NCBI RefSeq assembly: GCF_900109545.1
Contig: NZ_FOAP01000003.1
Span: 62,001-126,000, forward strand
DNA from: Stigmatella aurantiaca
GTDB lineage: Bacteria > Myxococcota > Myxococcia > Myxococcales > Myxococcaceae
Direction: 5' to 3'
DNA: 64,000 nucleotides
The translations under genes and the position numbers were made by a program. The notes beneath the pieces are model-generated. The model worked only from the letters and a program-made list of their open reading frames with translations. It was not told the origin of the DNA and did no database searches. Positions 26,943-31,120 of the stretch are shown here, one piece after another (positions within the stretch are counted from its first letter, which is position 1; every line of letters starts with the position of its first letter).

Positions 26943-27356
26943 ATGAGCATGTCCTTGTGGAGTCTGCTGGGGTTCGCCGCGTGGACCCTGCTGCTGGTCC
27001 TCGGCGTCGTCTCGTACCGCTCGGCCCTGGTGCTGAGCGGGAAGCGCCGGGCCAACGCCTGGGGCCGCCACCTGCCCTTCCAGGATCCGGACCTCCTGCT
27101 GCGCCTGGCGCACGCCCACGCGAACTGCCTGGAGAACCTGCCCCTGCTGGCCGCCGTCGTCCTCGTCGCGGGGCTGACCGGCAAGCTGGCGCTCATTGAT
27201 CCTCTGGCGGGCCCCTACCTGGCGCTGCGCATCGGCCAGACCCTCGTCCACCTGGTGGGCACCTCCCACTGGCTCGTCTTCCTGCGCTTCTCCTTCTTCC
27301 TGCCCCAGTTGCTGCTCCTCGTCTGGATGATGGGGCGCCTGGCGGGAGTCCTCTGA
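26943..27356 (+). CDS. MAPEG family membrane protein
   Basis: 137 residues with four transmembrane helices (about 5-25, 50-70, 72-92 and 108-132). The MAPEG signature region reads RLAHAHANCLENLPLLAAVVL near 51-71, shown here by its E-N-x-P-x-x-x-A core, followed by LRIGQTLVHLVGTSH near 93-107. Members conjugate glutathione or isomerise prostaglandins in eukaryotes; bacterial members are mostly of unknown substrate. Start ATG 26943 has GGAGAAG four bases upstream. It is divergent from the hybrid kinase and precedes the SRPBCC operon, which has its own promoter. Confidence 0.85.
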   Translation: MSMSLWSLLGFAAWTLLLVLGVVSYRSALVLSGKRRANAWGRHLPFQDPDLLLRLAHAHANCLENLPLLAAVVLVAGLTGKLALIDPLAGPYLALRIGQTLVHLVGTSHWLVFLRFSFFLPQLLLLVWMMGRLAGVL

Positions 27357-27370
27357 CGGCCCTTGCGAAT

Positions 27371-27430
27371 GGCAACCGGGAGGTTGCACTTCTCGCCGCG
27401 CCTTCCTAATGTGCAACCTGGAGGTTGCAC
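27371..27430 (+). promoter_or_regulatory. Two GCAACC-N4-GGTTGC operators of the SRPBCC-arsR operon
   Basis: The first operator is GCAACC-ggga-GGTTGC at 27372-27387. The second is a perfect 20-base palindrome GTGCAACC-tgga-GGTTGCAC at 27411-27430 that ends at the base before the ATG. Their centres are 41 bases apart, close to four helical turns, so two dimers would sit on one face of the DNA. They cover both ends of the promoter at 27384-27412 and the ribosome-binding site. The ArsR protein encoded at 27873 is the natural candidate repressor. Confidence 0.75.
27384..27412 (+). promoter_or_regulatory. Sigma-70-type promoter of the SRPBCC-arsR operon
   Basis: TTGCAC (27384-27389), a 17-base spacer, then TAATGT (27407-27412). 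Transcription would begin near 27419, giving a leader of about 12 bases that holds GGAGG at 27420-27424. Both boxes overlap the operators. Confidence 0.65.
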
Positions 27431-27892
27431 ATGTCCACGAGTACCGATCGCATCGAGAAGAGGATCCTGCTGCGTGCACCGCGCGCCCGCGTCTGGCGGG
27501 CGATCTCGGACGCGGGGGAGTTTGGCACCTGGTTCGGGCTGAAGCTGGAGGGCACGTTCGCGCCCGGAGCGCACATCAAGGGTAAGATCCTGCACCCGGA
27601 CTACGCGCACCTGCCATTCGAGATCCTCATCGACCGCGTGGAGCCCGAGCGGCTGCTGTCCTGGCGCGCCCCCCCGCACCCCGAGGCGCAGGGCATGTCC
27701 TCTCCCGAGGTGCCCACGACGCAGGTGGTGTTCACGCTCGAGGACGCGCCGGGCGGGACGCTGCTCACGGTGGTGGAGTCCGGCTTCGATGCGATTCCGC
27801 TGCCGCGCCGGGCGGAGCTCTACCGGGGCAACGAGGAGGGCTGGACGATTCAACTGGGGAACATCGAGCGGCATGTCAGCACGGCGGCCTAG
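27431..27892 (+). CDS. SRPBCC (AHSA1-like) domain protein
   Basis: 153 residues forming a START/Bet v 1-like fold of the AHSA1 (activator of Hsp90 ATPase C-terminal) type: IEKRILLRAPRARVWRAISD near 8-27 is the opening strand and helix, EFGTWFGLKLEG the next turn, and GWTIQLGNIERHV the closing helix. Such proteins bind hydrophobic ligands; when paired with ArsR regulators they are thought to take part in stress or ligand response, but ligands are rarely known. ATG 27431 has GGAGG seven bases upstream. The downstream arsR starts inside this gene (20-base overlap), a tight two-gene operon under the operators at 27371-27430. Confidence 0.87.
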   Translation: MSTSTDRIEKRILLRAPRARVWRAISDAGEFGTWFGLKLEGTFAPGAHIKGKILHPDYAHLPFEILIDRVEPERLLSWRAPPHPEAQGMSSPEVPTTQVVFTLEDAPGGTLLTVVESGFDAIPLPRRAELYRGNEEGWTIQLGNIERHVSTAA

Positions 27893-28229
27893 CGCAGGAG
27901 CTCTGGCGGGCGGGCTGAAGCACGCCGCGCCCCTGTTCGCCGCGCTCGGGGACGAGACGCGGCTGTGGATGGTGGCGCGGTTGAGCACCGAGGGGCCCTT
28001 GTCCATCGCGCGCCTCACCGACGGCGCGGGCGTCACCCGTCAGGCCATCACCAAGCACCTGCACGTGCTCTCCGAGGCGGGCATGGTGCGAAGCCTCCGA
28101 CAGGGCCGCGAGAGCCTGTGGGAGTTCGAGCCGGGCCAGCTCGACGAGGCACGCCGCTGCCTGGCGCGCATCTCCCAGCAGTGGGACGAGTCGCTCGGGC
28201 GGCTGAAGCAGCTCGTGGAAAAGTCCTGA
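27873..28229 (+). CDS. ArsR family transcriptional regulator
   Basis: 118 residues with a winged helix-turn-helix: FAALGDETRLWMVARL near 22-37, SIARLTDGAGVTRQAITKHLHVL (recognition helix, about 44-66), and wing GMVRSLRQGRESLWEF near 70-85. It lacks the metal-binding Cys of ArsR/SmtB sensors, so it is of the non-metal subgroup commonly coupled to SRPBCC proteins. It probably represses its own operon at the two palindromes upstream of 27431. ATG 27873 overlaps the preceding gene by 20 bases. Confidence 0.88.
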   Translation: MSARRPSAGALAGGLKHAAPLFAALGDETRLWMVARLSTEGPLSIARLTDGAGVTRQAITKHLHVLSEAGMVRSLRQGRESLWEFEPGQLDEARRCLARISQQWDESLGRLKQLVEKS

Positions 28230-28519
28230 CCCCCCTCTGCGGGCGCGCATCACCTCCCTGGGCAGAAGGCCTTGCTCGGAGGGCGGGCAGGCCAACCCGT
28301 CAGCCATTCGAACCGGTACTTCTGTCCAAGCACCTCGGAGGACAACCAAGCTGACGAGCCCTTCATGCAATGGCGCTCATCAGCCAGCCAGGAGCCGGGG
28401 GCCCTATCACTTCAAGAAACAAGACAACGCATTGGGGGAGAGACACGACAATTTGAAACCGGCTCATGAAGCTTGCCCCGGCACCTGCTGAAACAGTTCT
28501 CTCCTTGAAAGAGCATTCC

Positions 28520-30121
28520 ATGCCCATCCAGAAGACTCCCGGCCGCACGACTCCTACAGCGCCAGCGAAGGCTCCCGCTCCGGCACCTGTCCAGCGTCTG
28601 ACGAAGAGTGCTTCTGGAGCCGCCACCAGCAAAGCAGCTACCGCCCCTTTGGGCCACAGCATGAAGGACTCCTTCGAAGCATCGCCGCAGGCAAAGGGCG
28701 CGCCCCTTCGGGCTGCCCGCGGAGCCACGCACGCGAGCAATCCGGCCTCGACAGCACGTCCCGTGAATGCCAAGGCCGCTTTTCAATCCTCAAAAAAGGT
28801 GGCCGAGGACCGGCGCGAAATCGAGTCTGGCAACAAACTGATGGACGCCTATGGACGGTTGCATGACGCCTCGACCCCAATCCATCAGATTCCCGCGTAC
28901 CAGCCCGCAAATGGGGTTCCGTTCGCCGTCGACAATCCTCGCATCTACGTCAACGGCGTGTTCACGGATGCCGCCACGCAGCGGCTCACCGCGCAACGGC
29001 TTGCGAATGCCTCCGGCGAGGCGACGGTCGCCTTCCGCAACGCGACGGAGCCTGGACTCGCAGACATCTCTGAAGCCCTCAGGAGCAAGCGAGGATTTTC
29101 CACCGAAGTCTCCCAATCGCTGGCGAAGGTTCTATTCGCGCGGCTCAAGGATGGAAAGCCGGTCACCGTCGAGGCCCACAGTCAGGGAGCCATCATCGCG
29201 AGTGAGGCGCAGATCGAAGTCAAGAAGATGCTGATTGCTTCCGGGATGCCCACTCCCCGGGTCGAGCAGGCCATGCACAATCTCACGATCATCACCCATG
29301 GGGGTGCTTCACAGACATACATGGATGGCTCGAAGTACACTCACAACCTGCACGAGGCCGATGCCGTCGCCAACCTCACAGGACTCGGCACGAGCGATGC
29401 TCCCTTCTGGTACAAGTTCCTGACCCATCCCGGAAAGGACGCGCAGATCCATTGGTCTCCGCCACCCGGCAGCGATGCCCATGGGATTAACGGTTACCTG
29501 AAAACCTCTTACGGACCGCATCAGGAGCCAGTCCTTCCCAATTTGATGGACCGTTTCAGCGCTGGATTCTCACCTCCGTCCTCCCTGGGAAACTCATTTG
29601 GTTTCGGTCCATTTGGCACGCGAGCGGGAGCGTTCAGTGCCCATGGTGGTACCGGAATTGGAACGCTGGGGACAGGCAACTTCCACTCTTTTGGACTGGG
29701 GAGTTGGTCCTCCTTGGGTGCGCTCGCGCAGGGCCACGCGTTCCAAAGCGATCTCGGGACTTCTCCCGCCGTGGGTTCGCCCTTTGGGCTCAGCGGCTGG
29801 GTGACGCCTTCTTCGTTCCGCCCCGACATCCCCATGTACCGCAACAGCTTCGGGACGATGCCTGGCAGCCCCTTCACCTTCGCAGGCCTGGCTGGCTCCA
29901 GAGGAACCAGCCCAGGCCTAGGAACGATCGGAGGCAGTCCTCTCTCCCACTTCAATCTACAGGGCTTCGTAGGCTCGGCTGGCGGTACAGGCTCAGGGCA
30001 TTCCATGGGCTCTGTTCCCATAGGGACCGCAGGAGGGATTGGCACCATCGGTATTTCAGGCCTTGCGGCGACCGGGAGCTTTGGCGATTTCGGCGCATCG
30101 CTGCTCAGTGGCGGCGATTGA
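28520..30121 (+). CDS. Serine-hydrolase-like protein with Gly/Ser/Phe-rich tail
   Basis: 533 residues, no signal peptide. Residues 1-100 are a Pro/Ala/Ser/Thr-rich, probably disordered leader. Residues 125-330 look like an alpha/beta-hydrolase: IYVNGVFTDAATQRLTAQRL near 138-157, and PVTVEAHSQGAIIASEAQIEV near 215-235, where AHSQGA is a nucleophile elbow; TIITHGGASQTY near 255-266 and the later Asp/His region may complete the site. Residues 345-533 are a Gly/Ser/Phe/Thr tail with repeated SFG, GTG and IGTIG. GC content is visibly lower than in neighbours, suggesting recent transfer. ATG 28520 has AAAGAG seven bases upstream; ATG 28466 is an alternative adding 18 residues. An exported lipase-like effector is possible. 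Confidence 0.72.
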   Translation: MPIQKTPGRTTPTAPAKAPAPAPVQRLTKSASGAATSKAATAPLGHSMKDSFEASPQAKGAPLRAARGATHASNPASTARPVNAKAAFQSSKKVAEDRREIESGNKLMDAYGRLHDASTPIHQIPAYQPANGVPFAVDNPRIYVNGVFTDAATQRLTAQRLANASGEATVAFRNATEPGLADISEALRSKRGFSTEVSQSLAKVLFARLKDGKPVTVEAHSQGAIIASEAQIEVKKMLIASGMPTPRVEQAMHNLTIITHGGASQTYMDGSKYTHNLHEADAVANLTGLGTSDAPFWYKFLTHPGKDAQIHWSPPPGSDAHGINGYLKTSYGPHQEPVLPNLMDRFSAGFSPPSSLGNSFGFGPFGTRAGAFSAHGGTGIGTLGTGNFHSFGLGSWSSLGALAQGHAFQSDLGTSPAVGSPFGLSGWVTPSSFRPDIPMYRNSFGTMPGSPFTFAGLAGSRGTSPGLGTIGGSPLSHFNLQGFVGSAGGTGSGHSMGSVPIGTAGGIGTIGISGLAATGSFGDFGASLLSGGD

Positions 30122-30139
30122 ACCGTCCCCCTTGGAGCT

Positions 30140-31120
30140 GCTTTCCTCGGGTCACCTCCGGAGCAGCGCCTTACGGCAGCCACTCGCCGTTGAAGCACAG
30201 ATGGCGCGAAGAGCCAGCGCCCCCCGGAGTCCCCCATCTCTTGCGCCATGAGGTCATCCCACGCCTGCGTCGCGGCGTTCGTCTGCGCGCTGGTGTCCGT
30301 CAGGCCGTGGTGGCCCATGTACACCGGGTCCCTCCGGTTCGGGGCCGCCAGGAGCCGCAGCCCCAGGCCGCCCTTGGCCACCGGCCGGTGGATGGCGGCC
30401 ATGGCGGACAGCCCCGCGAAGCAGGCCGAGGCAGGGCGCCCAGCCGCCAGGGCGAGCGCGCGGCACTCGGGGCTGAACTCCGCCCGGTAGAGCGTGGCGA
30501 GCCGCTCGGTGACTACGGGGTCCGGGTCCCCCACGCTCCCCTGGGTGTAAGCAGGGTCGTTCCAGTTCAGCGGCATCCAGCCCGCATTGGAGATAATCCA
30601 CAGGCGCTGGGCCGCGCGGGCCTACGGCATGGCGCGCGCGAGCTGATCCGCGTTGTTCTGGGCGCCCTGCCCTCCAGCCGACTGCCCCGTCCAGATGACC
30701 TTCACCTCCGGGTCCCGGTCATCCAGGCCATAGTCGCGGCGGAGGATCTCCAGCATGGCCCGGGCGTTCAGGCGGCCGTTGAAGTACAGCTTCCGGTTGC
30801 CATCCACGAACTGCGGCGTGGGGTTTGTGCCCGTCCAGAGGCCGCTCAAGCAGTAGTGGCCCGAGGCCTGGTTGGCGTTGGCGAAGGTGGGGTTCTCGGC
30901 GGGGTCGCGCGAGAGGATGCCCAAGCCGCTCAGCGGGGTGGCGTTCAGCGTCCGGTCCAGCGGCAGGCCCTTGCTGGTGAGCAGCGGCCCCGGTCCGCGC
31001 ACGCGTTGGTGACACCGTCACACTAGCCGCCGCCCTGGGTGTTGATGATCCACACCTTGCTGCCCGTGGGCGAGGGGCTGAACTTGAACGCGAACTCCGA
31101 AGTTCGAGTCATAGGTCATG
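30140..31120 (-). pseudogene. Decayed pectin-acetylesterase-like esterase
   Basis: On the minus strand a pectinacetylesterase-type hydrolase can be read in pieces: GSKVWIINTQGGG, then a TAG, then CDGVTNACADRG; a change of frame; LLTSKGLPLDRTLNATPLSG through VKVIWTGQSAGGQGAQNNAD, containing the GxSAGG nucleophile elbow; a TAG at 30622-30624; and then, in the same frame, QRLWIISNAGWMPLNWNDPAY to WDDLMAQEMGDSGGRWLFAP. The first TAG falls where homologues have an aromatic residue after GGG (TGG or TAC to TAG). At least one further frame change lies near 31095 before SEFAFKF. With two nonsense codons and two frameshifts it cannot make the full enzyme. Its left end merges with the 3' end of the convergent gene at 30121. 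Confidence 0.75.

Follow-up and report, generated by a model that had tools for sequence, protein, structure and literature searches.

The window, the 64,000-nucleotide stretch of Stigmatella aurantiaca DNA analysed here, contains a gene for an SRPBCC protein followed by a gene for an ArsR-family repressor, and the short region in front of this pair carries two palindromes of the pattern GCAACC-N4-GGTTGC. The locus thus raises the question of what these palindromes do and which protein reads them. Comparison of sequences leads us to favour, at a probability of roughly 0.86, the reading that the palindromes control an SRPBCC-ArsR operon that represses itself, with an ArsR dimer predicted at each palindrome. 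The SRPBCC gene (AHSA1, PF08327; 27431-27892, plus strand, stop codon included) encodes 153 amino acids, and its stop is overlapped by the start of the ArsR gene (27873-28229, plus strand; 118 amino acids), whose recognition helix reads TRQAITKH. The first operator, O1 (GCAACC-GGGA-GGTTGC, 27372-27387), has half-sites that pair at 6/6 positions around GGGA, and the -35 element TTGCAC (27384-27389, plus strand) overlaps it within its right half. The -10 element TAATGT (27407-27412, plus strand) abuts the second operator, O2 (GCAACC-TGGA-GGTTGC, 27413-27428), from whose centre and right half the Shine-Dalgarno sequence GGAGG (27420-27424, plus strand) is built. O1 is assigned on its sequence and its retention in orthologues, O2 on its sequence and conservation. 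The initial annotation had described both sites, with centres 41 bases apart, and a TTGCAC-17-TAATGT promoter between them. Both sites proved exact, 41 bp apart from start to start, and the hexamers and their 17-base gap are as described. It had also called O2 a perfect 20-base palindrome that covers the ribosome-binding site and ends at the ATG. The Shine-Dalgarno sequence is indeed covered, but O2 forms the middle of a longer inverted repeat of 24 nt (27409-27432) in which 11/11 bases pair and the central GG does not, so that the palindrome is not strictly perfect, and this repeat extends two bases into the ATG (27431-27433) of the SRPBCC gene.

These palindromes are kept where the ArsR is kept. 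In an ArsR search of 96 genomes of the bacterial family, all of the 12 best matches (at least 53% identity; L003-L014) were preceded by two sites within one mismatch, at a spacing of 41 bp in nine, 44 bp in two and 46 bp in one; the next 18 loci (at most 39% identity; L015-L032) yielded a site in 0/18. Absence of the palindromes at orthologous loci had been named beforehand as the finding that would speak against autoregulation; their presence in 12/12 orthologues strongly supports, by comparison, a model of autoregulation through two operators. The search of other myxobacteria that had been proposed gave a similar picture. The double site occurred in 22/195 Myxococcota genomes (0/195 with the reversed pattern as control), the SRPBCC gene starting directly behind it in 22/22 and ArsR following in 21; at the one exception (L230), the contig runs on for just 166 bases. 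Spacings were 41 bp in 11 genomes, 42 bp in three, 40, 44 and 45 bp in two each, and 38 and 46 bp in one each. Since the double site is missing from 173/195 Myxococcota genomes, the module appears to be patchy. A two-mismatch pattern search of 59 relatives matched 32 of them, and was used only for finding loci because it gives many chance matches and the reversed control also matches.

We then extended the double-pattern scan to 84,980 named genomes, tolerating GCAACT in the first site since three relatives have it, and obtained at least 120 stretches. Among the matches listed, an SRPBCC gene lies directly downstream in 102 of 120 stretches (99 identified by script, and L115, L131 and L148 by eye), ArsR itself in three (L087, L160, L168) and other actinobacterial genes in seven (L111, L132, L142, L147, L158, L165, L176). 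ArsR is present on the stretch in 90/99 of the listed SRPBCC loci found by script, and in the remaining nine the stored stretch stops at or just past the SRPBCC gene. The listed matches come from actinobacteria, alpha-, beta- and gammaproteobacteria, acidobacteria, myxobacteria, gemmatimonads, a planctomycete and Eremiobacterota, according to record titles, some of which belong to metagenome bins and may be mislabelled. At the level of sequence, then, the double site before the same two genes occurs across phyla, and the finding reaches further than the initial annotation had proposed. No general partner gene was found 3' of ArsR among 61 candidates from the 90 listed loci, DNA ligase occurring in five and an MFS gene in three. 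Several additional single sites are located within reading frames and appear to be fortuitous.

The listed loci also allowed the geometry of the region to be compared. At the window locus, 41 bp corresponds to 3.9 turns, so the earlier claim that the two operators lie on one helix face holds there; as a rule for the family, it does not. O1-O2 spacing in the 99 listed SRPBCC loci covers the range 31-59 and peaks at 33-34, 41-42 and 44-46. Only 42/99 keep the two operators on the same side of the helix to within 60 degrees (10.5 bp per turn), where about one third would be expected by chance. A helical phase lock was rejected accordingly, and the helix-face argument should be replaced by one of promoter overlap. 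TTGCAC and TAATGT each match the E. coli sigma-70 consensus at 3/6 positions, and a consensus promoter scan of the control region found no promoter. The distance from O1 to the -10 element varies less. TANNNT occurs 19-21 nt past the end of O1 in 37/74 listed loci with a spacing of 40-50 (22/29 at 40-42, 9/35 at 43-46 and 6/10 at 47-50), whereas the other 23 offsets combined account for two in these spacing classes; at spacings of 31-34, it was found at this offset in 0/18 listed loci. Since the O1-to--10 offset is comparatively constant, the right half of O1 would provide the TTGC of a -35 element that a 17-base gap separates from the -10, while O2 slides. The promoter assignment of the initial annotation is thus supported by the conserved arrangement, and the transcription start would lie at about 27419-27420, inside O2. 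GGAGG occurs in O2 in 51/99 listed loci and in O1 in 0/99, and a start codon follows 2-6 nt past O2 in 50/51 of those with GGAGG in O2. By spacing, the listed loci with GGAGG in O2 amount to 50/64 at 40-46, 1/13 at 47-59 and 0/22 at 31-39 (Fisher 2.7e-6 for 40-46 against 47-59, with relatedness ignored).

The overlap of O2 with the ribosome-binding site raises an alternative, namely that O2 acts mainly as an RNA hairpin hiding the Shine-Dalgarno sequence and the AUG, rather than chiefly as a target for protein binding. In read-through RNA, O2 would indeed form a 10-bp stem that encloses the Shine-Dalgarno sequence and reaches the AUG (-15.4 kcal/mol for 27407-27434), and a gene for a MAPEG-family membrane protein (26943-27356) on the same strand ends just 15 bp before O1. 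However, RNA from the start predicted above would begin inside the palindrome and could not form the stem, and 48/99 listed loci have no GGAGG in O2. Moreover, O1 is equally conserved but is not at a ribosome-binding site, and the site accompanies the recognition helix of ArsR (see below). Because of these last two observations, a hairpin is very improbable as the main role of O2, although it may form as a by-product or an insulator. The MAPEG gene was also considered as a member of the system and set aside; among the stretches compared, it is present only in the window genome and its near relative G038.

If the sites are bound by protein, the encoded ArsR is the obvious candidate. It scores above cut-off with HTH_20 and with the NCBIfam model HTH_metalloreg, and just below it with HTH_5 (21.2 vs 22 bits); together with a predicted fold that matches 2oqg and CzrA, this places it among winged helix-turn-helix proteins of the ArsR type. 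In the predicted model (mean pLDDT 88), R56-H62 lie on a helix spanning residues 56-68, and strands 72-77 and 80-85 form a hairpin that turns at G78-R79. Alignment of 41 members showed A24, R30, R56, Q57, K61, H62, G78, R79, E80 and W104 to be invariant. No cysteine was invariant among the same 41 members, the best column in the 108 site-linked ArsRs contained Cys in 33, and the CmtR model scored far below its cut-off (28 vs 150 bits). Judged by cysteine ligands and sensor models, the protein therefore does not belong to the metal-sensing class of ArsR, SmtB, CmtR and CzrA. The closest solved structure by sequence is PDB 2oqg, an ArsR-like protein from Rhodococcus sp. RHA1 (profile E 1.8e-30), which is also closest by fold to the predicted model (Z 15.1, 2.0 A over 106 residues) and agrees with the window ArsR at the RQ, KH, GRE and W residues in the alignment; no paper on its function or DNA site was found in the open-licence literature. 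The arrangement typical of ArsR/SmtB repressors, an inverted-repeat operator overlapping the repressor's own promoter, is present here as far as sequence and conservation can tell.

Four of the invariant residues, R56, Q57, K61 and H62, belong to a helix motif that accompanies the sites. We found [ST]RQ[AGS]xxKH in 107/108 site-linked ArsRs, with L148 as the exception; these comprise 96 proteins from the listed scan matches and 12 from the family search and represent 107 distinct sequences, L014 and L123 being apparently one record. Conversely, ArsRs without the helix had a site within one mismatch in 0/73 cases. These 73 were drawn from the family search (18), paralogues in site-holding genomes (11), the family of the Rhizobium genome G137 (25) and six actinobacterial genomes, G120-G125 (19), and an SRPBCC match lies on the same stretch in 61 of them (13/18, 10/11, 25/25 and 13/19, respectively). 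Two samples contained helix-bearing ArsRs as well. In the G137 family, where 61 genomes were searched, 46 matched and 30 loci were examined (one per genome), 5/5 helix-bearing ArsRs picked by protein had a site, four of them having two and L270 one. In G120-G125, chosen as site holders, 30 loci were examined and 7/11 helix-bearing ArsRs had a site; the other four (L303, L304, L305, L309) have both helix and SRPBCC, with no site even at two mismatches. The near-miss helices TRQSATQH and TRAAVKKH were likewise without a site. Within the samples examined, the RQxxxKH helix thus looks necessary for the site but not sufficient, and as a sufficient predictor it was rejected on the 4/11 failures in the six actinobacteria. 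Something besides the helix must therefore matter, be it further residues or an altered operator. The association of helix and site is also confounded by shared ancestry.

The same four loci give some room to a further alternative, that the sites are those of a different regulator whose place in front of the SRPBCC-ArsR pair is coincidental, since these loci show that helix and site are separable. We regard this as very improbable in view of the 0/73 helix-less ArsRs with a site and of the three listed matches in which ArsR itself lies directly behind the sites. The four exceptions do, nevertheless, slightly lower our confidence in the autoregulation model. That the palindromes arose by chance, or are a mobile REP-like repeat with no regulatory role, we consider negligible in probability: although eight of the 120 listed stretches appear repeat-like by eye (L074, L083, L091, L095, L102, L110, L114, L118), the protein beside the L074 site resembling a REP-associated transposase on inspection, exact copies of GCAACC-N4-GGTTGC in the whole 9,365,767-base genome number exactly two, O1 and O2, against a chance expectation of about one single copy per genome and about 4e-6 pairs 31-61 bp apart (G+C assumed to be 68-72%), and their position before the same two genes is kept across phyla. 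The reversed-pattern control gave 0 copies in the 9,365,767-base genome. A search of the same genome with the 18-base pattern at two mismatches found three further sites against four control matches, i.e., no excess, so a wider regulon was rejected there; with two exact sites and no excess of near-matches, the operon is the only evident target in its own genome. As a separate observation, GCAACC-N4-GGTTGC occurs in apparent repeat families of other phyla (L074, L083, L091, L095, L110, L114), which makes it a trap for pattern searches.

In actinobacteria, some double sites lie away from the ArsR gene. MFS transporters identified by Pfam lie behind the double site in L132 (1762-3238) and L147 (7443-8000), and a further MFS gene follows a 25-bp double site in L213 (819-2111). 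The double site of L158 is flanked by genes for an SDR and a RibD_C protein, and that of L111 by genes for a VOC protein and a methyltransferase. By eye only, L142 and L165 resemble the MFS protein of L132, and L176 the SDR of L158. These stretches occur in the six genomes G120-G125, L111 and L165 sharing a strain name. Elsewhere in each of these genomes is a helix-bearing ArsR that adjoins SRPBCC and has one or more sites of its own, counted at up to one mismatch (L302; L298; L297; L301 and L314; L299; L300). The distant double palindromes are therefore predicted, from sequence, to mark a regulon of MFS, SDR, RibD_C and VOC genes. Since MFS genes are found both under double sites and directly after ArsR in 3/61 operon ends, export of an organic compound is suggested, and we suspect that the system serves defence against small organic molecules rather than metals.

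Autorepression by ArsR would, in our model, proceed as follows. An ArsR dimer would bind each of O1 and O2, covering the -35 element with the former, and the transcription start together with the DNA encoding the Shine-Dalgarno sequence with the latter. Because the operators overlap these elements, binding would keep RNA polymerase off the promoter. A signal, probably a small organic molecule rather than a metal, would free ArsR so that both genes are made, and newly made ArsR would then shut the promoter again. Binding, repression, the position of the start, the signal and the role of SRPBCC are all predictions of this model, and repression may be tight or cooperative. A broader proposal, which we put forward tentatively and think rather unlikely to hold in full, is that the RQxxxKH helix reads the double palindrome as an operator code shared across phyla, that this code serves a module for small-molecule defence, and that read-through hides the Shine-Dalgarno sequence and so insulates the operon. 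SRPBCC would handle a lipophilic toxicant, ArsR would sense either the toxicant or its complex with SRPBCC, and the same code would in actinobacteria also switch on MFS exporters and modifying enzymes. Transcripts from the operon's own promoter alone would expose the Shine-Dalgarno sequence, read-through transcripts folding it away. Insulation would fit the rarity of the Shine-Dalgarno sequence in O2 where the promoter would lie wholly upstream of O2 (1/13 listed loci at spacings of 47-59 vs 50/64 at 40-46).

The ArsR-COG3832 gene pair was surveyed in 2009 by Makarova, Wolf and Koonin. That survey counts the pair, which is widespread and lacks metal-binding motifs, among modules that resemble toxin-antitoxin systems, and considers antibiotic resistance its most plausible role (PMC2701414). 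With an ArsR that has no metal motif and an AHSA1 partner, the window pair is the same gene pair, AHSA1 being equated with COG3832 through the available parts of the survey, which give no operator or regulatory code (PMC2701414). The ArsR group described here would be one subset of it, marked by RQxxxKH. The nearest described regulator is Rv2034 of Mycobacterium tuberculosis, an ArsR-family autorepressor in an operon with the polyketide_cyc2 gene Rv2035; according to the available parts of the report, its operator CCGTAAGT-N4-ACTTACGG is a footprinted palindrome near the start codon, with four bases between arms of eight, and its DNA binding was uninhibited by zinc and four other metals (PMC3338718). 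As far as that partial account goes, Rv2034 is like the window ArsR in adjoining a gene of the SRPBCC fold (the window frames overlap), and its site shares the 8-4-8 plan of arm, gap and arm with O2, GTGCAACC-TGGA-GGTTGCAC. On the same partial account, however, the sequences differ (CCGTAAGT-N4-ACTTACGG in a single palindrome, GTGCAACC-N4-GGTTGCAC in O2 of two sites), ArsR comes first in the Rv2034 operon while SRPBCC comes first in the window, and Rv2034 has further targets (dosR, phoP) whereas none is evident in the window genome. The window operators are thus GCAACC-N4-GGTTGC and not of the Rv2034 sequence type; in three mycobacterial genomes, a search for the latter gave two two-mismatch matches, and no ArsR or SRPBCC was found beside them. 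CmtR, an ArsR-SmtB repressor, uses multiple operators cooperatively for autorepression, to judge by the title of a study. CmtR is a cadmium sensor, whereas the window ArsR group has no conserved cysteine.

By analogy with Rv2034, an ArsR that represses its own operon would be regulation of an already known kind. New, on the sequences compared, are the code of the operator, the breadth of its distribution, and the dual use of operator halves as -35 element and Shine-Dalgarno sequence. No description of a GCAACC-N4-GGTTGC operator was found in the open-licence literature, which was covered mostly by titles and abstract openings, nor in the available parts of PMC3338718, PMC2701414, PMC8509827 and PMC2577659, and the accessible part of a study of Brucella ArsR6 autoregulation yielded no protected sequence. 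The ArsR-SRPBCC pair is a widespread two-gene module of unsettled function, going by the available parts of the survey (PMC2701414), and Rv2034 was the only related regulator found in the open-licence literature, so far as its texts were accessible, with a footprinted site given in the text. A site that is recognisable across distant phyla, together with its accompanying helix, helps to predict which ArsR controls what. The operator also offers a cheap reporter for an inducer search, and the MFS exporters under the same sites point to defence against organic compounds, not metals.

Some minor observations were made at other loci and near the operon. One stretch (L226, genome G007) has a single GCAACC-N4-GGTTGC at 1560-1575 and an ArsR of helix TRQAVTKH; its SRPBCC-like match is weak (E 1e-4), and inspection by eye shows minus-strand frames close by that resemble hydrolases and transporters. 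In the window, just downstream of the operon, a frame of 551 amino acids (28466-30121) contains the nucleophile-elbow motif AHSQG and has a tail rich in Gly and Ser. On the minus strand at 29521-31002, two adjoining frames look by eye as if a single hydrolase gene were divided between them, and one of the two ends in a GQSAGGQG-like nucleophile elbow.
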